A stretch of DNA of 39,940 nucleotides from Thauera phenolivorans. GTDB taxonomy: Bacteria; Pseudomonadota; Gammaproteobacteria; Burkholderiales; Rhodocyclaceae. Shown here in pieces: positions 11,442-23,487 of the stretch (positions are counted from its first letter, which is position 1; each line of letters begins with the position of its first letter). The stretch covers positions 278,391-318,330 of the forward strand of contig NZ_MBFM01000004.1 in NCBI RefSeq assembly GCF_001696715.1, read 5' to 3'. The position numbers and the translations under genes are program-made. Below the pieces are notes generated by a model that saw only the letters and a program-made list of their open reading frames with translations, had not been told where the DNA came from and searched no databases.

Positions 11442-12482
11442 ATGGAAAAGATCGATGCCCGCAAGCTTCCGCCCGAAGCCCTGGAACACATTCGTCGCCA
11501 AGCATTTGTACTGCGCAAGCAAGGCTACTCATGGACGCACATCGCTGAAGTGTGTGGGGTTCATGTCGGTACCGTTTTGAAATGGGCGCGGCGCACCCAG
11601 GCTGACGACCTCGACGCCGTCATCAAGGGCGGGCAACGTGGTCGGCGCCATGGCTCGGGACGAACTTTGACGCTGGTTCAAGAGGAGCAACTGCGTTTGA
11701 AGATCATCGGCTCGAACCCCGCCCAACTGCAGCTCGAGTTTGCGCTGTGGAATCGTCGCGCGGTCATGCTCGCCATCAAGCAGCTCTTTGGCATCGACAT
11801 GCCCATTCGCACCGTCGGTGAGTACCTTCGGCGGTGGGGTTTCACGCCGCAGCGGCCGGTCAAGCGTGCGCTTGAGCAGGATCCGGCCCGGCTCAAGGCG
11901 TGGCTTGAGGACGAGTATCCGAAGATCGTTGCGCGCGCCAAGACTGAGGATGCCGAGATCTACTGGGGTGACGAGACCGCCATTCGCCAGGACTCGCACT
12001 GGGTGCGCGGCTACTCGATGGCGGGGCTGACGCCTGAGCTTCGACTGCCGGCCGGTCGCCATGGATCGACATCGATGATCTCGGCGATCACCAACCAAGG
12101 CTTGGTGCGCTTCTCGTTCTTCGAGGGCGCCATCGATGCGGAGCGCTTCATCGTGTTCTTGAAGGACCTGATTCAGGATGCGCAGCGTAAGGTGTTCCTG
12201 ATCGTCGACAACTTGCGCGTGCACCGCGCCAACCGTGTCCGCGAATGGGCTGCCGAAAACACCGAGAAGATCGAGCTGTTTTACCTGCCGCCGTACGCGC
12301 CGGAACTCAACCCCGACGAGTATCTGAACCGGGATCTGAAAACGACGATACGCTCCGGGCCGATTGCCAGGACCGCCGCCGCACTTCTCGAGAAGGCGCG
12401 TACGTGCATGGAACGCATCGCTACGATGCCGGATCGTGTGCGGTCGTATTTCAGCCATGAGTACGTTCGCTACGCTCAGTAA
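11442..12482 (+). CDS. IS630-family DDE transposase
   Basis: This 346-residue transposase cuts and pastes the element at TA sites. The N-terminal helix-turn-helix region (residues 15-50, YSWTHIAEVCGVHVGTVLKWAR) would bind the terminal repeats. The catalytic DDE triad is visible: Asp177 in IYWGDETA, Asp256 in FLIVDNLRVH and Glu293 in YAPELNPDEYLNRDLK. No frameshift or stop interrupts it and both ends of the element are intact, so it may be active. The start lacks a ribosome site and may be translated from a leaderless message. Confidence 0.95.
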   Translation: MEKIDARKLPPEALEHIRRQAFVLRKQGYSWTHIAEVCGVHVGTVLKWARRTQADDLDAVIKGGQRGRRHGSGRTLTLVQEEQLRLKIIGSNPAQLQLEFALWNRRAVMLAIKQLFGIDMPIRTVGEYLRRWGFTPQRPVKRALEQDPARLKAWLEDEYPKIVARAKTEDAEIYWGDETAIRQDSHWVRGYSMAGLTPELRLPAGRHGSTSMISAITNQGLVRFSFFEGAIDAERFIVFLKDLIQDAQRKVFLIVDNLRVHRANRVREWAAENTEKIELFYLPPYAPELNPDEYLNRDLKTTIRSGPIARTAAALLEKARTCMERIATMPDRVRSYFSHEYVRYAQ

Positions 12483-12487
12483 TTTAG

Positions 12488-12552: not shown

Positions 12553-13650
12553 ATGCCCATGATGAAAGCCACCGTCTTCGTCGCCCCCGGCCGCATCGAA
12601 CTGGTCGACAAGCCGGTCCCCGAGATCGGCCCCAACGACGCCCTGCTCCGCATCACCACGACCACGATCTGCGGCACCGACGTCCATATCCTGAAGGGCG
12701 AGTATCCGGTCAAGCCGGGCCTGACGATCGGCCACGAGCCGGTCGGCGTGATCGAGAAGCTCGGCAGCGCGGTGCAGGGCTACGCCGAGGGCCAGCGCGT
12801 GATCGCCGGCGCGATCTGCCCCAACTTCAACTCCTACGCCGCGCAGGACGGCGCGCCCTCGCAGGACGGCAGCTACCTCATCCCCTCCGGCCAGTGCGGC
12901 GCCCACGGCTACAAGGCCACCGCCGGCTGGCGCTTCGGCAACCTGATCGACGGCACGCAGGCCGAATACGTGCGGGTGCCCGACGCCCAGGCCAACCTCG
13001 CCCCCATCCCCGACGGCCTCAGCGACGAGCAGGTCCTGATGTGCCCGGACATCATGTCGACCGGCTTCAAGGGCGCGGAGAACGCCAACATCCGCCTCGG
13101 CGACACCGTGGCGGTGTTCGCCCAGGGTCCGATCGGCCTGTGCGCCACCGCCGGCGCGCGACTGATGGGGGCGACCACGGTGATCGCGGTCGATGGCAAC
13201 CCGCACCGCCTCGGCATCTCGAAGGTGATGGGCGCGGACGTCACGCTGAATTTCCACGACTGCGACGTCGTCGAGGAAATCATGAAGCTCACCCGCGGCC
13301 GCGGCGTCGATTCCGCGATCGAGGCACTCGGCACGCAGGGCACCTTCGAGTCGGCGCTGCGCGTCCTGAAGCCCGGCGGCACGCTGTCCAGCCTCGGCGT
13401 GTATTCGTCCGACCTGACGATTCCGGTGTCGGCCTTCGCGGCCGGCCTCGGCGACCACCGCATCAACACCGCGCTCTGTCCGGGCGGCAAGGAACGCATG
13501 CGCCGGCTGATGAACGTGGTCGCATCCAAACGGGTCGATCTCGGCGTGCTGGTCACCCATACCTACAAGCTCGACGACATCGTCGCCGCCTACGAGCTGT
13601 TCGCCAACCAGCGCGACGGCGTGCTGAAGGTCGCGATCAAGCCGTCCTGA
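12553..13650 (+). CDS. Zinc-dependent secondary alcohol dehydrogenase (probable isopropanol dehydrogenase)
   Basis: A 365-residue medium-chain dehydrogenase. Catalytic zinc ligands are Cys40 (CGTD), His61-Glu62 (GHEP) and Asp166 (CPDIMSTGFKGAE); the Asp, and the lack of the four-cysteine structural-zinc lobe, are typical of the tetrameric secondary-alcohol group that includes clostridial/Thermoanaerobacter isopropanol dehydrogenases. The segment ALCPGGKERMRRLMNVV also matches that group. The Rossmann fold reads AQGPIGL then VIAVDGNPHRL; Asp214 at the end of strand 2 favours NAD+ over NADP+. An AGGAG site lies 7 bp before the ATG. Beside acetone carboxylase, the likely job is isopropanol to acetone; the direction and substrate are inferred. 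The IS630 element sits directly upstream and may have replaced its promoter. Confidence 0.88.
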   Translation: MPMMKATVFVAPGRIELVDKPVPEIGPNDALLRITTTTICGTDVHILKGEYPVKPGLTIGHEPVGVIEKLGSAVQGYAEGQRVIAGAICPNFNSYAAQDGAPSQDGSYLIPSGQCGAHGYKATAGWRFGNLIDGTQAEYVRVPDAQANLAPIPDGLSDEQVLMCPDIMSTGFKGAENANIRLGDTVAVFAQGPIGLCATAGARLMGATTVIAVDGNPHRLGISKVMGADVTLNFHDCDVVEEIMKLTRGRGVDSAIEALGTQGTFESALRVLKPGGTLSSLGVYSSDLTIPVSAFAAGLGDHRINTALCPGGKERMRRLMNVVASKRVDLGVLVTHTYKLDDIVAAYELFANQRDGVLKVAIKPS

Positions 13651-13714: not shown

Positions 13715-15748
<2,034 letters not shown>

Positions 15749-15917
15749 CTGTCTCCTCCTCGCGGAAACGCGAGGCGGCGGGTCGCTTCACGCGACCGGA
15801 GGGTCGGAGCTCTTGTCGATTCTGCCGCCTCGGCTTCGGTGTCCTGCCTTCGGTGTCGTCGGTCGACGACCCGTCGAGCCGCAGCGCCACCGCGGGGACG
15901 GTGGCGCTGCGGCTCGT
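15749..15917 (-). other. Structured acxR 5' leader with four stem-loops
   Basis: From the predicted start near 15917 the leader is about 170 nt. In transcript order it contains a perfect 17-bp stem with 6-nt loop (15915-15876), a 6-bp stem GTCGTC-n4-GACGAC (15870-15855), GGTCGC-n5-GCGACC (15797-15781) and CTCGCG-n4-CGCGAG (15774-15759). The last runs into the GGAGGAG ribosome site. A 10-bp direct repeat CTTCGGTGTC (15834 and 15848, plus strand) lies between. No coding sequence is supported here, and it does not match any riboswitch family I know. Confidence 0.55.
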
Positions 15918-15927
15918 CCTGAAGCAT

Positions 15928-15943
15928 AGCAAACTCGATGCCA
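15928..15943 (-). promoter_or_regulatory. Sigma-54 (-24/-12) promoter of acxR
   Basis: On the minus strand the sequence reads TGGCATCGAGTTTGCT, preceded by C. It matches YTGGCACG-N4-TTGCW at the GG (-25/-24) and GC (-13/-12), with the required 10 bases between. The predicted start is near 15917. A CCAGAC-GTT-GTCTGG dyad (15941-15955) overlaps the -24 end. Confidence 0.7.
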
Positions 15944-16070
15944 GACGTTGTCTGGACGCAAGGACTTCGTTCGCACCACGGCGCAGCACGGGACGATCCG
16001 CCCATGCCGTGCCGCTTGCGCAGCTTGAGGGCACTCGAACCGGTGGCGGAAGGCGACATTCGAACGGCGC

Positions 16071-16124
16071 CCGGACGTCCGGAAACCGGACGCTCGCCGG
16101 ACGCAGACGTTCGAAATCCGGACG
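16071..16124. promoter_or_regulatory. Candidate AcxR enhancer sites upstream of acxR
   Basis: Two 17-bp dyads of the form CGTYCGRAAWYCGRACG. Site 1 (16076-16092) is a perfect inverted repeat CGTCCGG-AAA-CCGGACG; site 2 (16108-16124) reads CGTTCGA-AAT-CCGGACG. Their centres are 32 bp apart, close to three helical turns, at about -167 and -199 from the predicted acxR start. Extra CCGGACG half-sites begin at 16071 and 16097. The same dyad occurs upstream of acxA. The array ends 2 bp from the stop codon of the synthetase gene, so the 378-bp gap 15749-16126 is filled by control sequence rather than a gene. Confidence 0.6.
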
Positions 16125-16126
16125 AC

Positions 16127-18127
16127 CTAGACACCCACCGTCACCGACTCCCTGCAGGCGCGAATCGCATCGATCGCCGCCGGATCCTCGAGCGAGCTGA
16201 GGTCGCCGAGCGGCTCACCGAGATAGGCCGCACGCACCAGGCGGCGCAGGATCTTGCCGTTGCGCGTGCGCGGCAGCGCGGCCGCCCGATGCACCCTGGA
16301 TGGCGCCAGCGGTTTGCCGAGGCAGGCGGCGAGGTGGTGGCGCAGCGCCCGCTCGCTTTCCGCCCAGGCGTCGGCCGACGGCGTGCCCGACGCCGTGGTC
16401 ACGAAGCAGACTGCCGTCTCGCCCTTCACCGCGTCGGGCACGCCGATCGCCACCGCTTCCCTGACCAGCGGGTGACCGACCAGGGCCGATTCGTACTCGG
16501 CCGGACCGACGCGCTTGCCTGCGACCTTGAGCGTGTCGTCGCTGCGACCCTGGATGAACCAGTGGCCGTCGTCGTCGAGCCGGGCCCAGTCTCCATGCAC
16601 CCAGACGCCCGGCAGGCGCGACCAGTAGGCGTCCAGGTAGCGCGCCTCGTCCTGCCAGAAGCCGGCCGCCATGCCCGGCCACGGCGCACGCAGTACGAGC
16701 TCACCCACCTCTGCCGCGGCGCTCACCGCAGGCGCCCCCGCAGCGTGCAGGCTCTGCCCACCCGCGTCGACCACGTCGGCCACCATGCCGGGGATCGGCC
16801 CGGCGAAACCACACGGCTTCTGCGGCAGGCCCGGGAAGCAGGCGAGGATGCCGCCGCCGATCTCGGTGCCACCCGAGTAATTGATGATCGGCCGGCGGCC
16901 TTCGCCGACGCGCTCGAACAGCCAGCGCCAGGGCGCCTCGTTCCACGGCTCGCCGGTGGAGCCGAACACGCGCAGGCTGGCGAGCGCCCCGGGGCCAGGC
17001 AGGGCCGCCTCGCCCTCGGCCATCAGCAGCCGGGCCAGCGTTGGCGCCAGGCCGAGGTGGGTCAGGCGATGCCGCTCGATGAGCTGCCACAGGCGGTCCG
17101 GCCGCGGATGGTCGGGCGTGCCCTCGAACAGCATCAGGCTCGCGCCGCGCAGCAGCCCGCCGAACACCAGCCATGGCCCCATCATCCAGCCCATGTCGGT
17201 GATCCAGCCGATGCGGTCGCCCGCCTTCACGTCGAAGGCCATCAGCATGTCCTGGGCGGCCTTCAGGGTGAAGCCGCCATGAGTATGAACCACGCCCTTC
17301 GGCCGCCCGGTGGTGCCAGAGGTGTACAGGATCATCAGCGGCACATCGGCGGCGTGGGGCGCGGCGCCCGCCTGCGGCGCGCTGGCGTCGATCAGGTCGC
17401 GGTAGCCGGTCTCGCGCCAGCGCCGCGAGCCGGACAGCGCCGGGCGCGCATCCCCCGGGCGGGCGACGACCACCAGGTCGGCGAGCGCGGGGCTGGTCTC
17501 GGCGGCCCGGCGCGCCTCGATCAGCATGTCGAGCCGCCGCCCGCGCCGCAGGCAGGCGTCGGCGCACACCAGCACCTTGGCGCCGCTGTCGCGCAGCCGG
17601 GTCGCCACCGCGTCCGCCCCGTAGCCGGAGAACATCGGCACGGCGATCGCGCCGAGGCGGGCACAGGCCAGCAGCACGATTGCCGCCTCGGGCACCATCG
17701 GCAGATAGATCGCGACGCGGTCGCCGCGCGCGACGCCGAGGCTGGCAAGGCCCGCCGCCAGGCGCCGCGCCTCGTCGTCGAGTTCCGCGTAGCCGTGCTG
17801 GCGCACGCTGCCGTCATCGCCCTCCCACAGCAATGCGGGGCGATCCGGGTCCTCGCGCGCGATGCGGCCGACGAGGTTGTCGTGCAGGTCGAGTTCGCCG
17901 CCGACGAACCAGTGCGCCCATGCCGGCCCGTCGCTCAGGTCGAGTACGCGTTCGTAGGGCCGCGTCCAGCGCAGGCCGAGCGTCTCCGCCACTTCGGCCC
18001 AGAAGCGCGCCGGCGCGGTCGCGGCACCGGCATGCAGCCCGGCGAGGTCGACATAGCCGTAGCGCCGGATGAAACACGCAAGCCCGGTATCCTCGAAGCG
18101 GATGCCGCTGCCAATACAGGTTTCCAT
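16127..18127 (-). CDS. AMP-forming acyl-CoA synthetase, probable acetoacetate-CoA ligase
   Basis: A 666-residue adenylate-forming enzyme of the acetyl/propionyl/acetoacetyl-CoA synthetase group. It has the N-terminal ACAS segment (ARFWAEVAETLGLRWTRPYERVLD, near residues 40-65), the P-loop motif LYTSGTTGRPKGVVHTHGG near 295, the GSTGEPWNEAPW and NYSGGTEIGGG segments, the hinge HGDWARLDDDGHWFIQGRSDDTLKVAGKRVGPAEYES, and the C-terminal catalytic lysine in RTRNGKILRR. Start chosen at the ATG 18127 behind GGAAGGGG; a further ATG at 18166 is less likely. It is the last gene of the acx operon, so acetoacetate made by the carboxylase is the natural substrate; sequence alone cannot separate this from acetate or propionate. 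Thiolase is not in the window. Confidence 0.82.
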   Translation of the reverse strand: METCIGSGIRFEDTGLACFIRRYGYVDLAGLHAGAATAPARFWAEVAETLGLRWTRPYERVLDLSDGPAWAHWFVGGELDLHDNLVGRIAREDPDRPALLWEGDDGSVRQHGYAELDDEARRLAAGLASLGVARGDRVAIYLPMVPEAAIVLLACARLGAIAVPMFSGYGADAVATRLRDSGAKVLVCADACLRRGRRLDMLIEARRAAETSPALADLVVVARPGDARPALSGSRRWRETGYRDLIDASAPQAGAAPHAADVPLMILYTSGTTGRPKGVVHTHGGFTLKAAQDMLMAFDVKAGDRIGWITDMGWMMGPWLVFGGLLRGASLMLFEGTPDHPRPDRLWQLIERHRLTHLGLAPTLARLLMAEGEAALPGPGALASLRVFGSTGEPWNEAPWRWLFERVGEGRRPIINYSGGTEIGGGILACFPGLPQKPCGFAGPIPGMVADVVDAGGQSLHAAGAPAVSAAAEVGELVLRAPWPGMAAGFWQDEARYLDAYWSRLPGVWVHGDWARLDDDGHWFIQGRSDDTLKVAGKRVGPAEYESALVGHPLVREAVAIGVPDAVKGETAVCFVTTASGTPSADAWAESERALRHHLAACLGKPLAPSRVHRAAALPRTRNGKILRRLVRAAYLGEPLGDLSSLEDPAAIDAIRACRESVTVGV

Positions 18128-18196
18128 GCTGTCCCCTTCCTCCCGGTCGAGTGCGGCACGGCGCACGCTCGCGCCCGCCGTGCCGCCGCACTGGCC

Positions 18197-18703
18197 TCAG
18201 TCGGCGCGTTCCGGCACCGGCAGGCCGACCCATTCTTCGTAGAAGGCCCCGATGTCCGGCTCGAAGTCGTGGATCACCGGATACCAGGGGGTGGGCGCCT
18301 CCACGTCGTGCATCGTGCCGCAGGTCGGGCAGTAGTACTCGCGATAGACCTGCCAGCTGGTGTCGGGCGCCATCAGCTTCGGGTACACCTCGGTCATCGC
18401 CTCCTCGGTGTCGCGCACGTACACGACGGCGTTGAGCTTCCAGTTCTCGCGATAGTCGCCGAACTCGTGGCCGCAGTCGCATTTGGTGACCCACTGCTTC
18501 GTCTTCGCCGACTGCGCGATGTAAAGGTGCGGGCCGAGCGGCAGCACGATGCGATCGGGCCAGCTCACCTTCTTCTGCAGGGTCTCGACGTACAGCGCGA
18601 AGCGCTCGTTGTCCTTCGGCATCGACAGCATGCGCATCGTGGTTTCCCAGTCGAGGCGGCCCTCGACCAGCTTGCTGACCTGTTCCTTGGTGTAGGTCGT
18701 CAT
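18197..18703 (-). CDS. acxC: Acetone carboxylase gamma subunit
   Basis: The 168-residue gamma subunit completes the (alpha-beta-gamma)2 acetone carboxylase. Its length equals that of the Xanthobacter protein as I recall it. Two cysteine pairs, Cys75-x-Cys77 (CDCGHEF) and Cys125-x2-Cys128 (YCPTCGT), form a probable zinc-binding site. Other typical segments are YTKEQVSKLVEGRLDWETT and PDTSWQVYREYYCP. A GAGGAGA ribosome site precedes the ATG. It lies 75 bp after acxB, with a strong hairpin in between, and 69 bp before the synthetase gene. The short gamma with paired cysteines argues for acetone rather than acetophenone carboxylase. Confidence 0.95.
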   Translation of the reverse strand: MTTYTKEQVSKLVEGRLDWETTMRMLSMPKDNERFALYVETLQKKVSWPDRIVLPLGPHLYIAQSAKTKQWVTKCDCGHEFGDYRENWKLNAVVYVRDTEEAMTEVYPKLMAPDTSWQVYREYYCPTCGTMHDVEAPTPWYPVIHDFEPDIGAFYEEWVGLPVPERAD

Positions 18704-18727
18704 GATTCGTCTCCTCTCGATCTTCAG

Positions 18728-18750
18728 GCCGCCGCCCGGCGGGCGGCGGC
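18728..18750 (-). other. Intercistronic hairpin between acxB and acxC
   Basis: Perfect 10-bp GC stem GCCGCCGCCC-ggc-GGGCGGCGGC in the 75-bp acxB-acxC gap. It lacks a following T-run on the minus strand, so it is more likely an RNA-stability or partial-attenuation element than a full terminator. Confidence 0.5.
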
Positions 18751-18778
18751 GTTCGTCTTCATGGCGCGGTGCGCCGGC

Positions 18779-21106
18779 TCATTCCTCGACCAGCACCACG
18801 GTGCGCACGTCGGGCATCTTCGACAGGTCCATGCGGTACTTCGAACCGTAGGACGGCACGCCGAGCTCCTCCTCGAGCACGTTCCATTCCTCGGGCAGCT
18901 CCCAGAACGCCTTGAACTCGGCGAGGAACTTGGGCGACAGGCCGAAGCTGGTGGCGAACATGTGCTGCACCGCCGGACCGGCATGCTTGGTGAGGATCCG
19001 TTCGCGCTCCTCCTTCATCCAGTCGCGGGTCGGCACCGCGCGCGCCAGCCGCTCCTTGCGCACCTGGGCGCGACGCGCCGCGGTCTTCTCCGCATCCACG
19101 CTCCACACCCCCTTGGCATCCTGTTCGATGACCGCCCCATAGACCTTGCGGGCGTACTCCGGCAGCAACCAGGCGTTGTTGAGGTCGCGCGCGATCGCCG
19201 CCGGCTCGCGGTCGAGCGGATCGCCGAAGCCGGGGCCGCCGCGCAGGTAGTTGAGGTAGAGGTCGTAGTTCTCGTAGCAGTCCTCGGTAGTCATGCACTG
19301 GTGGTCGCGCTTGACCACCGCGCCGGCGTCGATGTGGCGCTCGTAGTCGGGCTCGTCCGGGTTCAGGTCGGCACCCAGCGGCAGGCTGTCGCCGATCACG
19401 ATGCGCTGCTCGAGCCCGGTCTTGTGCGCCTCGAAGCGATAGCCGGTGGCCGATGGGTAGCCGCCCATCAGGCCCCAGTCGCTGTTCATGTAGCCGTTGC
19501 CCATGAAGAACATCGTCCAGTCCTGGGCCTTCCACACCATGCGCAGGGTCTCGAAGCCGCAGCCGCCGCGGAACTTGCCGTAGCCGCCGGAGTTCGCCTT
19601 GGCGTTGCGCCCGAGGTAGAGGAGCGGCTCGGCCATCTCCCAGATCTCGATGTCGCCCATGTCGCCTTCGGGGTTCCAGATCGCCGCGGCGTGGTTGAGG
19701 CCGTCCTTGATCGCGCCCGCGCCGGTGCCGCACGACGAGGCCTCGAAGGAGTTCACCGCGTGGATCTCGCCGTCCTGGTTGATGCCGCCGCCCTGCAGCC
19801 AGTTGGAGGTGTTGGCGTTGCCCGCGTTGACCTCCTCCAGGTAACCGCGGCTGAAATAGGCCTGCGACAGGCCGCGCCACATCGCGCTCCAGCCCGAGAC
19901 GAGGAAGTGCCAGGCATAGGCGTGGCCGGTGCGGCGGTCGTCCGGGTTCATCCAGGTGCCCTTGGGCAGGCGGAACTCGGTGCCGTAGTAGGCGCCGTCG
20001 TTGATGCGCTGGGTCGGCACCAGGGTCTGGGTCATCATCACCCACAGCCCGCTGGTGAAAGCCACCTGGTGGGCGTTGTAGCTGTGCCAGCCCCAGCGGC
20101 TTGCGCCCTCGAAGTCCAGCCGCCAGCTGCCGTCCCTGCGGATCTCCATCTCCACCGGCGAGTGCATGATGGTGTCGAGCTTGGCGAAGGCGTTCGAGGT
20201 CTGCACGTCCGGGTGGGCATAGGGCACGTCGACGAAGGCGACCTTGCGGTACTTGCCGGGCAGGGTCATCGCCTTCAGCCGGCTCAGCAGCCCGCGGCGG
20301 CCTTCCTCGATGACCTCGAAGGCGAATTTCTCGTAGGCCTCCAGGCCCTCGTCCTCGATGACCTCCTCGATCAGGTCGCGGATCATGTGGCAGCCGGCGA
20401 TGCGGGTCTTCTCGTCGAGGATCCAGTACTTCGGCGTGCGCACCGAGCGCTGGCTCTCGTGCAGCCAGTCCTTCAGCGGCTGGTCGTTCACCCCGGTCTT
20501 GCGGCAGGTGATCATGTAGCCGTCGCCGAAGCGCTGGGTCTGCCCGGTCGACATCGAGCCCGGCGTGACCGCGCCGGTGTCGATGACGTGGGTGACGCCG
20601 CCGACCCAGCCGACCAGCTTGCCGTGGGCGAAGATGGGCACGATGGTGGCGATGTCGCAGGGATGGACGTTGCCGATCGAGCAGTCGTTGTTGGTGAACA
20701 TGTCCCCGGGGTTGATGCCGGGGTTGCTCTCCCAGTCGTTCTCGATCATGTACTTGATCGCCGCGCCCATCGTGCCGACGTGAATGATGATGCCGGTCGA
20801 GGTCAGCACGCAGTCACCCGCGGCGTTGTACAGGGTGAAGCAGAGTTCGCCTTCCTGCTCGACGATCGGGCTGGCGGCGATCTTCTTCGCCGTTTCACGC
20901 GCATGGACCAGGCCGCCGCGCAGCTTGGAGAACATCTTCTCGTAGCGGATCGGATCCGACTCGCGCAGCTCCAGCCGGGCGAGTCCGTTGTAGTGGCCGC
21001 CGCTCTCCTTCGTGCGCTGCAGGATGCCGTCGCGGAACTGCTTCAGGGTCTGGCCGTTGCCGAGCAGGTTGGCAAAGCCGACTTCCTTGTCGCTCATCAT
21101 GTTCAT
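18779..21106 (-). CDS. acxB: Acetone carboxylase alpha subunit (hydantoinase B/oxoprolinase family)
   Basis: This 775-residue (about 85 kDa) subunit belongs to the HyuB family and holds the metal-dependent carboxylation site. Family segments include GGHYNGLARLELRESDPIRYEKMFSKLRGGLVHARETAKKIAASPIVEQEGELCFTLYNAAGDCV near the N-terminus, MFTNNDCSIGNVHPCDIATIVPIF (metal-binding His/Asp region), GGGINQDGEIHAVNSFEASSCGTGAGAIKDGLNHAAA, and FRGGCGFETLRMVWKA. The ATG at 21106 lies 10 bp after the acxA stop, behind GAGGAC. Unlike plain hydantoinases, the pair is followed by the zinc-type gamma gene, which fixes the function. Confidence 0.95.
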   Translation of the reverse strand: MNMMSDKEVGFANLLGNGQTLKQFRDGILQRTKESGGHYNGLARLELRESDPIRYEKMFSKLRGGLVHARETAKKIAASPIVEQEGELCFTLYNAAGDCVLTSTGIIIHVGTMGAAIKYMIENDWESNPGINPGDMFTNNDCSIGNVHPCDIATIVPIFAHGKLVGWVGGVTHVIDTGAVTPGSMSTGQTQRFGDGYMITCRKTGVNDQPLKDWLHESQRSVRTPKYWILDEKTRIAGCHMIRDLIEEVIEDEGLEAYEKFAFEVIEEGRRGLLSRLKAMTLPGKYRKVAFVDVPYAHPDVQTSNAFAKLDTIMHSPVEMEIRRDGSWRLDFEGASRWGWHSYNAHQVAFTSGLWVMMTQTLVPTQRINDGAYYGTEFRLPKGTWMNPDDRRTGHAYAWHFLVSGWSAMWRGLSQAYFSRGYLEEVNAGNANTSNWLQGGGINQDGEIHAVNSFEASSCGTGAGAIKDGLNHAAAIWNPEGDMGDIEIWEMAEPLLYLGRNAKANSGGYGKFRGGCGFETLRMVWKAQDWTMFFMGNGYMNSDWGLMGGYPSATGYRFEAHKTGLEQRIVIGDSLPLGADLNPDEPDYERHIDAGAVVKRDHQCMTTEDCYENYDLYLNYLRGGPGFGDPLDREPAAIARDLNNAWLLPEYARKVYGAVIEQDAKGVWSVDAEKTAARRAQVRKERLARAVPTRDWMKEERERILTKHAGPAVQHMFATSFGLSPKFLAEFKAFWELPEEWNVLEEELGVPSYGSKYRMDLSKMPDVRTVVLVEE

Positions 21107-21116
21107 GACTGTGTCC

Positions 21117-23267
21117 TCACTTCACTTCGCGGAGATGGAAAAGGCGGTGCTTGTCGAGCCGGGTCTCGAAGCCGTCGGGCACGACGAAGGTGGTGGCATC
21201 GGACTCGATGATCGCGGGGCCGGCGACGCGGTTGCCCGGCTTGAGCGACTCCATCTTCCACAGCACCGCATCCACCCATTTGCGGTTGCGATAGAACGGC
21301 CGGGTGCCCAGCCTGGCCTCCTCCGGCGGGGTCTCGCCCATCTCCGGGTCCTCGGGCAGCACCGGCTTCTGCGTCATCACCAGGCCGCGCATGATCGCGC
21401 CGGTGACGGAGAAGCCCAGTTCGGGCGAACGCGCCGAGCTGGCATACACGCGGGAGTAGGTGTTCTCGTAGGCCTCGACGATCTGGTCCCAGTCCGCTGC
21501 GGTGGCGGCGGAGGCGATCGGGGAGGTGATCTCGAGGTCGTTGAGCTGACCCATGTACTGCATCCGGAAGCCGGGGCGCAGGATCACGTCCTCCGGCTTG
21601 AAGCCGTTGATGACGAACTCGTCGATCACCTTCGCGGCCAGTTCGGCCCAGGCACCCTGGATGGTCTGGCAGGCGGCTTCCTTGGCGTCGTCGGCGGCGA
21701 ACTGGGGCACCGCGATGTCCACGCTCTTGTCGTAGCGGTACTCGAAGTCGGCGCAGGCGCAACCGAATGCGGAGAAGCCTGCCGCCCACGCCGGTACGAT
21801 GACGTCCTTGAAGCCCGCGCCCTCGGTGTAGCCATAGGTGTGCACCGGGCCCGCGCCGCCGTAGGAGAAGCAGACGAAGTCGGCCGGGTTGTAGCCCTTG
21901 GCGCTGATGTTGGCCCGCAGGTAGTCGCGCAGCTGGAGGTCGAGCAGCTCGATGACGCCGGCGGCGGCATCCTCCACCGAGAGGCCGAGCGGGTCGGCGA
22001 TCTGCGCCTTGATGTGCTGGCGCGCGCGCTCGACGTCGAGCTTGATCGCGCCGCCGAGGAAGTTCTCCGGATTGAGGTAGCCGAGCACCACGTGGCAGTC
22101 CGACACCGACACGGTGTCGAGCCCGCTCTCCGGCCAGCAGGTGCCGACGCGATAGCCGGCGCTGTCCGGACCGAGCTTGATGCCACCGCTGTAGGGGTCG
22201 ATGCGCACGAAGCTGCCGGCGCCCGCGCCCACCGAGTCCATCGCCACCAGCGGCAGCGACAGCACCAGGCGGGCCATGTCGGGATCGGAGGCGATCGCGA
22301 AGTTGCCCTTGGTGATCAGTGCCATGTCGAAGGAGGTGCCGCCGATGTCGGAGCAGGCGATGTTCTCGTAGCCGAGCGCCTCGCCGAGCAGCCGCGAGCC
22401 GATGACGCCGCCGATCGGGCCGGAGACGATGGTGCGCGCGAGCTCCTTCGCCTTCCATGAGATCGTGCCGCCATGGGTCGCCATCACCCGCAGGTCGAAC
22501 TTCGCGCCGTGCTTGCGGAAGCGCTCGCTGACCTTCTGCAGGGTCTGGCGCGAGGGCTCGGCGGCGTAGGCCTCGAGCACCGTGGTGTTGGTGCGGTGGC
22601 TTTCCTTGCGCGAGGGGTAGTAATCGACCGAGGCGAACACCGGGATGTCCACGCCCAGCTTCACCAGCTCCTCGCGGCAGACGTCGCGCGCCCGCTTCTC
22701 GTTGCTTTCGTTCTTGTGCGACTGCAGCAGACAGATCGCGATCGCCTGCGCGCCCGCCTCGACCAGCTCGCGGGTGGCCTGGCGAACCTCGTGCTCGCGC
22801 AACGGGATCACGACCTCGCCCTGCACGTCGGTGCGTTCGGTGACGCCGCGGGTGCGCGACAGCGGCACCAGCGGCTCGTCGTAGCGGTGGGTGTTGAGGT
22901 GGATACGGTCCTCGAGCGCATAACCGAGGTAGCTCTGGACCGCGCGCCCCATGGAATGGACCTGCTCGAAGCCCTTGTTGCAGATCAGGCCCACGTCGAG
23001 GCCCTTGCGCTGCACCACCCGGTTCAGCATCGCGGTGCCCGAATAGACGCAGGTGACCAGCTCGGGATAGACCTCGTCGACACCCCGCCCCCAGTGGGCG
23101 AGCGCGTCCTCCGAGGAGTTGAAGATGGCGAGCGATTCGTCCGCCGGATTGCTCTGCGCCTTGCCGACGACGAAGCGGCCGTCGCCACGCACGAAGAAGG
23201 TATCGGTCATCGTGCCGCCGGCATCGATGCCCATCACCTGTACCCGCGATGCGGTCTGGACTTCCAT
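21117..23267 (-). CDS. acxA: Acetone carboxylase beta subunit (hydantoinase A/oxoprolinase family)
   Basis: The 716-residue (about 78 kDa) beta subunit uses ATP, which acetone carboxylase cleaves to AMP and two phosphates to activate acetone and bicarbonate, giving acetoacetate. Hallmarks of the HyuA/ASKHA nucleotide-binding fold are VMGIDAGGTMTDTFFV at the N-terminus, SGTAMLNRVVQRKG, VMATHGGTISWKAKELARTIVSGPIGGVIGSRLLGEALGYENIACSDIGGTSFDMALI, and FVCFSYGGAGPVHTYGYTEGAGF. The ATG at 23267 follows GGAGACAG. It is the first gene of acxABC-synthetase, with a -24/-12 promoter about 65 bp upstream and enhancer-like dyads behind that. No truncation is visible. Confidence 0.95.
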   Translation of the reverse strand: MEVQTASRVQVMGIDAGGTMTDTFFVRGDGRFVVGKAQSNPADESLAIFNSSEDALAHWGRGVDEVYPELVTCVYSGTAMLNRVVQRKGLDVGLICNKGFEQVHSMGRAVQSYLGYALEDRIHLNTHRYDEPLVPLSRTRGVTERTDVQGEVVIPLREHEVRQATRELVEAGAQAIAICLLQSHKNESNEKRARDVCREELVKLGVDIPVFASVDYYPSRKESHRTNTTVLEAYAAEPSRQTLQKVSERFRKHGAKFDLRVMATHGGTISWKAKELARTIVSGPIGGVIGSRLLGEALGYENIACSDIGGTSFDMALITKGNFAIASDPDMARLVLSLPLVAMDSVGAGAGSFVRIDPYSGGIKLGPDSAGYRVGTCWPESGLDTVSVSDCHVVLGYLNPENFLGGAIKLDVERARQHIKAQIADPLGLSVEDAAAGVIELLDLQLRDYLRANISAKGYNPADFVCFSYGGAGPVHTYGYTEGAGFKDVIVPAWAAGFSAFGCACADFEYRYDKSVDIAVPQFAADDAKEAACQTIQGAWAELAAKVIDEFVINGFKPEDVILRPGFRMQYMGQLNDLEITSPIASAATAADWDQIVEAYENTYSRVYASSARSPELGFSVTGAIMRGLVMTQKPVLPEDPEMGETPPEEARLGTRPFYRNRKWVDAVLWKMESLKPGNRVAGPAIIESDATTFVVPDGFETRLDKHRLFHLREVK

Positions 23268-23330
23268 GGTTTCTGTCTCCGTTGCTTCTGGTTGGATGAG
23301 GTGCCGTGTGCCCGGCCCCGCAATGCCTTA

Positions 23331-23346
23331 CGCAAGCCGCGTACCA
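23331..23346 (-). promoter_or_regulatory. Sigma-54 (-24/-12) promoter of acxABC
   Basis: The minus strand reads TGGTACGCGGCTTGCG, preceded by C. Compared with YTGGCACG-N4-TTGCW it misses only one base in the -24 block and the last W. The invariant GG and GC are exactly 10 bases apart. The predicted start is near 23320, giving a leader of about 53 nt before the acxA ATG. Confidence 0.75.
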
Positions 23347-23438
23347 GTTTTTCCAGCGTGCAGCGCAGCACGAACCGAGACCCTGAAGACCGGGGCAGAT
23401 CGAGCATCGGATGCGGCAGCGCACCAGAAACGGAGGCG

Positions 23439-23487
23439 TTCCGGCGATGACCGGAAACGGGATGGACGTCCGGAAATCGAACGTTCG
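23439..23487. promoter_or_regulatory. Candidate AcxR enhancer sites upstream of acxA
   Basis: The 17-bp dyad CGTCCGG-AAA-TCGAACG (23467-23483) shares GGACGTCCGGAAA exactly with the site at 16073-16085. It overlaps a CGAACGTTCG palindrome (23478-23487). Closer to the promoter is a second dyad, TTCCGG-cgatga-CCGGAA (23439-23456). Centres are about -155 and -127 from the predicted start, a usual enhancer distance. The 330-bp gap 23268-23597 contains these sites, the -24/-12 promoter and the lipoprotein terminator, and no supported gene. Confidence 0.6.

Follow-up and report, generated by a model that had tools for sequence, protein, structure and literature searches.

A 17-bp palindrome before acxA and acxR in Thauera phenolivorans is probably the enhancer of the sigma-54 activator AcxR

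In the window, the 39,940-nucleotide stretch of Thauera phenolivorans DNA that we analyzed, one palindrome stands once behind a predicted -24/-12 promoter of acxA and twice behind one of acxR. We judge, with a probability of roughly 0.88, that AcxR has this dyad as its upstream activating site, through which it would drive acxABC-acs as well as acxR itself in a positive, self-amplifying loop. The narrower reading, that the dyads are docking sites of AcxR, is very probably correct on the sequence comparisons given below.

All genes of the locus lie on the reverse strand. AcxR is encoded at 13715..15748 (the TTG start codon at 15748 is uncertain) and consists of a GAF region, a sigma-54 AAA+ domain (PF00158, E 1.2e-62) with GAFTGA at residue 429, and a C-terminal Fis-type helix-turn-helix (PF02954, E 3.3e-9). 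These domains, together with palindromes upstream of a -24/-12 promoter, place it among the sigma-54 enhancer-binding proteins. The codon of Lys655, the residue of the recognition helix IAKSTLY that co-varies with the site's outermost base, is at 13784..13786. The acetone carboxylase subunits are encoded by acxA (21117..23267, HyuA-type by Pfam), acxB (18779..21106, HyuB-type by Pfam), and acxC (18197..18703, the gamma subunit, PF08882, Acetone_carb_G), followed by an acs-like acyl-CoA ligase gene (16127..18166) whose product probably activates acetoacetate. With these three subunit genes, a linked AcxR-type activator, and a sigma-54 promoter before acxA, the locus has the makeup of an acxRABC system. 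The initial annotation had called AcxR the only sigma-54 activator encoded here, and a genome-wide search for PF00158 bears this out: of its 15 matches, 13 of them strong, one falls inside the window. The nearest other activator of the genome, the only other one opened, carries the helix ISRNTLYRK, and the stretch fetched around it holds no dyad core within two mismatches.

The three dyads reported earlier proved exact in sequence and coordinates: CGTCCGGAAACCGGACG at 16076..16092 and CGTTCGAAATCCGGACG at 16108..16124, respectively proximal and distal to the acxR promoter, and CGTCCGGAAATCGAACG at 23467..23483 before acxA, none assigned to a strand. The acxR pair is spaced 32 bp centre to centre, or about three helical turns, as had been noted. 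The predicted promoters lie on the reverse strand at 15929..15943 (TGGCATCGAGTTTGC, acxR) and 23332..23346 (TGGTACGCGGCTTGC, acxA). Setting the C of the -12 GC as -12, transcription would start near 15917 and 23320, so that the dyad centres fall at about -167 and -199 for acxR and -155 for acxA, in line with the distances of ~155-200 bp originally proposed. The acxR leader contains an 18-bp perfect inverted repeat (15875-15892/15899-15916), and strong folding of its hairpin is seen in the window (z -7.0) as well as in L069 (-4.1), L124 (-2.8), and L187 (-2.2). We do not claim it as a conserved element because z was only 0.1 to -1.4 in the remaining 9 of 13 loci. A search of the window for the IHF consensus (at most one mismatch) returned a single match, at 12485, away from both promoters.

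Across the 3.69-Mb genome, the exact palindrome occurs three times, always at the acx promoters of the window, and the reversed pattern has no exact match. The scatter over the genome that had been named as grounds for dropping the dyad was thus not seen. No site with one mismatch was found, and 14 had two; at this tolerance, the palindrome had 17 matches vs. 32 for the control, and there is therefore no surplus past the three exact sites. Within the window, seven matches were found at up to three mismatches, compared to a shuffle mean of 2.84, and 7 of 100 shuffles reached seven; this statistic is weak evidence, whereas the exact pattern is strong evidence. The exact-site regulon in this genome comprises just the two acx promoters, and a wider one was rejected after the scan gave no additional exact or one-mismatch site.

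The dyad is conserved in relatives, contrary to one of the refuting outcomes named in the initial annotation. When each locus was scored with a matrix trained without it, 29 of 31 had their top site in front of acxR or acxA, with near relatives kept in the training set and training sites selected by their match to the originally annotated pattern (L064 and L087, under 15 kb, were excluded). In the window, the dyads scored 25.6, 25.5, and 21.5 bits, and the next site 4.8. Among family genomes, 33 of 79 with an acxC-like gene contained the exact palindrome, compared to 16 of 316 without one. Unlinked exact dyads made up 25 of 73 in these genomes, and 22 of them were opened (all except G500:C18, G624:C11, and G624:C13). 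Four proved to belong to acx genes whose contigs are broken (L175 twice, L177, L189), and 15 had no sigma-54-like string within 350 bp. Elsewhere, such a string precedes a porin-like ORF at L174, lies 268 bp from the dyad at L168, and at L160 is confined to the vicinity of a second site, which has one mismatch. The dyad is also found in front of paralogues of AcxR that neighbour distant carboxylase genes; in this set of seven loci and one broken locus, a -24/-12 string lies near the regulator's own dyad in three of the seven operons. Strong extra sites at Paraburkholderia-type loci were considered as a third target and rejected, as a second acxR-like ORF, called from its N-terminus only, follows in both of the loci opened, L106 and L107.

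The assignment of the dyad to AcxR, originally offered as inference, gains support from comparison of the site with the regulator's recognition helix, whose class the site type tracks. Loci with the K helix (IAKST) had CGT...ACG ends in 45 of 48 cases and TGT...ACA ends in none, and loci with R at the same position had TGT...ACA ends in 25 of 38. This count left out 14 loci duplicating named records, 18 fetched for unlinked hits, and any locus having neither upstream region; loci fetched later agree with the pairing. The window regulator belongs to the K class, with Lys655 and C..G site ends, and has neither the ISRST helix nor the TGT...ACA ends of the R class. On a tree of acxAB from 67 hand-listed loci, regulator class switches four to six times, and the acxA site type matches it in all 57 loci of decided type, although these supply only 4 independent pairs (p 0.125). 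The 10 undecided loci are L095 and nine R-class loci with mixed ends, and of the 36 K loci with a decided type, 9 owe it to a core carrying two mismatches. The K/R label switches just once on the regulator tree, and we accordingly rejected the helix rule as a record of many independent events.

The autoregulatory layout of dyads, -24/-12 promoter, and acxR, also part of the initial annotation, recurs as a layout in most of the K class. Among 39 hand-listed K-class loci, 35 hold a site upstream of the regulator gene (L108, L126, L144, and L188 have no core within two mismatches before acxR). In 34 of these 35, a sigma-54 element separates the site from the regulator gene, compared to 0 of 29 hand-listed R-class loci, and in 34 of 36 K-class loci one separates the site from acxA. 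The opposite-strand control gave 0 for acxA and 1 for acxR in the K class. Upstreams without a core (at most two mismatches) or under 200 bases were skipped in these counts, and at L141 the length limit and the best-core rule picked the wrong sites; its acxA dyad, exact or with one mismatch, is centred 129 bp from the promoter start.

This layout bears on the possibility that AcxR binds the dyads but represses or merely fine-tunes acxR, with no self-amplifying loop. Sequence alone cannot reveal the sign of control, and in the R class, where the regulator gene shares divergent sites and lacks its own sigma-54 element, repression or an absence of control would fit. Still, sigma-54 promoters require an activator, which counts against repression or fine-tuning at acxR, where the K-class promoter stands between sites and gene at distances typical of activation. 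We consider this alternative unlikely. That the dyads are bound by another regulator is less probable again, and we would be surprised by it: the genome encodes 12 further strong sigma-54 activators, besides regulators outside our screen, and the pairing of dyad with AcxR is drawn from comparative evidence, but the window holds no second sigma-54 activator, and no other regulator family appeared among 29 hand-picked ORFs of the 124 listed. Moreover, the site type shifts with the helix class of AcxR, and the dyad accompanies its paralogues even beside distant carboxylase genes.

A role for the acxR-side dyads in the acs transcript, as terminators or as RNA hairpins, seems hardly credible and was rejected. 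Although the distal dyad begins 2 nt past the acs stop codon and the palindromes could fold into short hairpins, a search of 15740-16200 for a hairpin with a T run found none, dyads are kept where no acs lies between acxC and acxR (e.g., L071, L079, and L080), and at acxA the dyad sits upstream of the promoter. The pairing of site and class might instead reflect promoter and regulator gene inherited as one block, which would make it uninformative about binding. The R-class regulator gene adjoins acxA divergently, and the single K/R change on the regulator tree fits such joint inheritance; K-class acxR, however, lies at the opposite end of the operon, with intervening acxAB of a different history, and the exclusive placement, spacing, and conservation of the dyads stand regardless. 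We give this account a small chance.

For the preferred reading, AcxR as activator of both promoters, we infer a mechanism in which AcxR dimers would bind CGTYCGRWWWYCGRACG through the Fis-type helix-turn-helix and its IAKSTLY helix, occupying the one site before acxA and the helically spaced two before acxR. Acetone or a related ketone is the probable signal; sensed by the N-terminal GAF region, it would release AcxR, which may then oligomerise, loop the DNA, and contact the sigma-54 polymerase at the -24/-12 promoters. Both acxABC-acs and acxR would be turned on, closing the positive loop.

A broader reading, which taken as a whole we hold at slightly under even odds, is that acx operons swapped their activator several times between two enhancer-code classes, helix K with CGT...ACG and helix R with TGT...ACA. 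The acxA enhancer, far from K-class acxR, would have switched at every exchange, and only in the K class would the regulator's own enhancers be paired with a sigma-54 promoter dedicated to it, making ketone control there self-amplifying and possibly switch-like. The same code would serve AcxR paralogues beside distant carboxylase genes, and the outermost base of the site would be set in large part by the K/R residue where the recognition helix begins. AcxR gains a putative enhancer code, and acetone use a circuit of one regulator and two promoters that can be tested. How an activator and a distant enhancer change together could be studied in this natural test case, with its two site classes, helix difference, and apparent repeated exchange, and the K-class circuit could become a ketone-responsive expression module.

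Control of acxABC by AcxR and sigma-54 is already known, and we found neither the enhancer nor the self-switching loop in print; six spellings of the dyad had no occurrence in the literature searched. Our comparisons draw on excerpts of the cited papers. In Clostridiales, enhancer motifs of enhancer-binding protein regulons were assigned comparatively and follow the DNA-binding domain (PMC6615313), although this is another phylum and the excerpts do not mention the AcxR group. EtpR of Aromatoleum aromaticum EbN1, from a related genus, likewise activates a catabolic pathway as a one-component sigma-54 regulator, but for other substrates, and the excerpts give no enhancer sequence (PMC4630880). 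Xanthobacter autotrophicus Py2 resembles the window in having acxABC under the sigma-54 activator AcxR (Sluis et al. 2002, cited in PMC2244623, PMC2864759), with neither enhancer sequence nor autoregulation given in the excerpts of those two papers. Cupriavidus metallidurans CH34, whose acx genes are induced on acetone or 2-propanol (personal communication in PMC2864759), shares with the window an AcxR-type activator and a sigma-54 promoter, TGGCATGNNNNTTGC, before acxA (PMC2864759). There, acxR is divergent and directly upstream, as in our R class, and the excerpts give no enhancer; in the window, by contrast, acxR lies downstream with a predicted sigma-54 promoter of its own (PMC2864759 for CH34).

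The three dyads matched the sequence and places first described for them exactly: two precede acxR (16076-16092 and 16108-16124) and one precedes acxA (23467-23483). Both the earlier pattern and its palindromic form, CGTYCGRWWWYCGRACG, had perfect matches at these three places only in the window's own genome (G000; 3.69 Mb, 14 contigs), confirming on a genome scan that the dyad is not scattered. That genome held no site with exactly one mismatch to the palindrome and 14 with two mismatches, vs. 32 matches at ≤2 mismatches for our control, the pattern read backwards, indicating that a tail of weaker sites is absent. Six of the 14 were one identical 17-mer (contig C1 at 98635, 275478, and 499893; C8 at 443904 and 647934; C10 at 179499), probably copies of one repeated element. 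In the window alone, the three-mismatch count was unimpressive (7 vs. a shuffle mean of 2.84).

Across 395 genomes of the family, the exact palindrome occurred at 73 places in 49 genomes, and at 48 of these places an acxC-like gene lay no more than 15 kb away. It was present in 33 of the 79 genomes with such a gene vs. 16 of the 316 without (Fisher p 5e-15). Because the backwards control gave ~30 matches in 27 genomes by hand count, the rate in acxC-less genomes is close to background. In one genome with no acxC match and Tepidiphilus acx carriers among its genus-mates, we saw an exact dyad and a -24/-12 string before an ORF that, judged by eye, is porin-like (L174:4135-5612).

To compare acx loci, we used the 80 best of the 214 loci from a scan of genome contigs with AcxC. 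Among these 80, 32 were class K: an AcxR relative with ≥50% identity is encoded downstream of acxC, on the same strand except in L138. Another 26 (27 with L076) were class R, with a 41-46% identical regulator divergent from and upstream of acxA; four were Geobacter-type loci with a 33-35% relative, and 17 had none of these regulator types. We trained a palindromic matrix on the best acxR-upstream site picked by pattern match, always leaving out the tested locus. Of the 31 loci that reached 15 kb, 29 had their top match upstream of either acxR or acxA, and the dyad is thus conserved in relatives. The exceptions, L101 and L106, had their top match 2.4-2.6 kb before acxA, in L106 at a second acxR-like ORF. 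The window dyads scored 25.6, 25.5, and 21.5 bits, the next-best window match 4.8, and in near-relative alignments the dyads and promoters were prominent within a diverged gap. Two loci contained a second acxR-like ORF upstream of acxA with a dyad before each (L106:3073-5170 and L107:2792-5167), and strong sites occupied a like position in L090, L101, L111, and L123.

Site type followed the regulator's recognition helix, which reads IAKSTLY in class K (some VAKST or IAKSTVY), ISRSTLY in class R, and VSRATFY in the Geobacter type. Typing the best core per locus in 103 loci, outer bases ignored, gave 45 C..G (CGT...ACG), 3 mixed, and 0 T..A (TGT...ACA) sites with K helices, and 25 T..A, 6 mixed, 2 C..G, and 5 without a site with R helices; loci with no full regulator recognised had 10 C..G, 1 T..A, and 6 none. 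The two R-helix loci with C..G sites, L062 and L154, encode a different activator (38%). A K-helix AcxR lies on the L062 contig ~10.5 kb from acxC, as seen in L187, and exact dyads at that distance suggest the same for L154. Fifteen extra loci were fetched once the matrix was already built. Here, IAKST regulators again had C..G sites (L192, L201, L203), an IARST helix accompanied TGT...ACA (L200), and an ISRST helix accompanied mixed ends (L202). L191 had TGT...ACA at -97, a partial regulator match, and no -24/-12 string found behind the site. No core was found near acxA in four acx loci that lack an AcxR-like gene and belong to a single family (L193-L196; f91, AcxA identity 39%), nor in distant loci L197-L199 and L204 or in L205 (helix MSRST).

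INDEPENDENCE. We compared the regulator tree with an acxA+acxB tree. The K/R label changed once on the regulator tree, so a residue rule is less well supported than the locus counts suggest. On the acxA+acxB tree, regulator class changed six times, at least four on well supported branches. The acxA site type tracked class in all 57 decided loci (36 K with C..G, 9 of these calls depending on a two-mismatch core, and 21 R with T..A; 10 further loci were undecided), and in 4/4 independent pairs (sign test p 0.125). Exchange of the whole region could have produced this co-variation. Still, K-class acxR lies at the opposite operon end from the acxA site, which makes co-transfer of one short segment less likely.

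Promoter arrangement separated the classes. Counting upstreams with a core at ≤2 mismatches and elements matching ≥5 of the 6 scored positions with GG and GC fixed, a sigma-54 element lay between site and gene for 34/36 K-class acxA (opposite strand 0), 34/35 K-class regulator genes (opposite strand 1), and 29/29 R-class acxA, vs. 0/29 R-class regulator genes. The predicted self-control via a dedicated sigma-54 promoter is thus a class K property. Consecutive cores were near three helical turns apart before both K-class acxR (31-33 bp, 20 pairs) and R-class acxA (29-31 bp, 20 pairs), and 11 pairs before K-class acxR overlapped at 15 bp. A core at ≤2 mismatches within 450 bp before acxR was absent in 4/39 K loci (L108, L126, L144, L188); in L141, the dyads lie ~640 bp before the acxR match.

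In the window, minus-strand gene order is acxA, acxB, acxC, the acyl-CoA ligase gene acs, and acxR, with -24/-12 elements at 23332-23346 (acxA) and 15929-15943 (acxR); no sigma-70-like promoter or terminator-like site was found at 15740-16200. AcxR has GAF, sigma-54 AAA+ (GAFTGA), and Fis-type HTH domains and is, as proposed, the sole sigma-54 activator that the window encodes; it is among 13 strong ones genome-wide. A perfect 18-bp inverted repeat (6-nt loop) sits where the acxR transcript is predicted to begin (15875-15916; folding z -7.0 in the window), but it is strong in just 4/13 loci examined. TGCTGCGCTGCA lies at 23359-23370, between the acxA dyad and the -24 element; TGYTGCGNTGCA-like copies, often paired at a distance of ~55 bp, are rare outside the loci of Thauera, Aromatoleum, Denitromonas, and Pseudothauera that carry them, with weak enrichment (best 9-mer in 9/23 loci vs. 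5-7 in 10 shuffles). An IS630-family transposase gene (11442-12482) adjoins a zinc alcohol dehydrogenase gene (12553-13650) that is convergent with acxR.

Seven further gene sets (L179-L184, L186) combine an acxC-like gene and a K-helix AcxR paralogue (52-56%) with three genes at 25-33%, two of them acxA-like and one acxB-like, and probably resemble acetophenone-carboxylase sets. An exact dyad preceded the paralogue gene in 7/7, with a -24/-12 string nearby in three (L180, L183, L184); in an eighth, L185, the dyad precedes a regulator gene split in two pieces. Separate from the regulator's own dyads, L179 (15633) and L182 (13194) have one-mismatch dyads beside an acs-like gene, with a -24/-12 string ~100 bp off.

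The dyads are best read as putative AcxR sites driving acxABC-acs and acxR. Spacing, conservation, exclusivity, and co-variation with helix class support and extend the initial annotation's enhancer interpretation at the sequence level. AcxR would bind the dyads, be licensed by a ketone signal, and activate acxABC-acs and acxR by looping. A loop requiring its own product would have to start from read-through or basal transcription; acs is oriented toward acxR, and the search for terminators between the two genes gave none.

Our literature search turned up nothing on the AcxR enhancer, on AcxR autoregulation, or on a division into two site classes, part of which the 2002 primary paper may contain. 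For Xanthobacter, regulation of acxABC by AcxR with sigma-54 is known (cited in PMC2244623); for C. metallidurans, it has been proposed and a -24/-12 promoter named (PMC2864759). Enhancer motifs are reported to follow the DNA-binding domain in Clostridiales (PMC6615313), and alanine scanning of the NtrC-family LuxO located critical residues in the third HTH helix (PMC11407668). A well-defined enhancer code for the known regulator AcxR is ordinary in kind and informative in detail.
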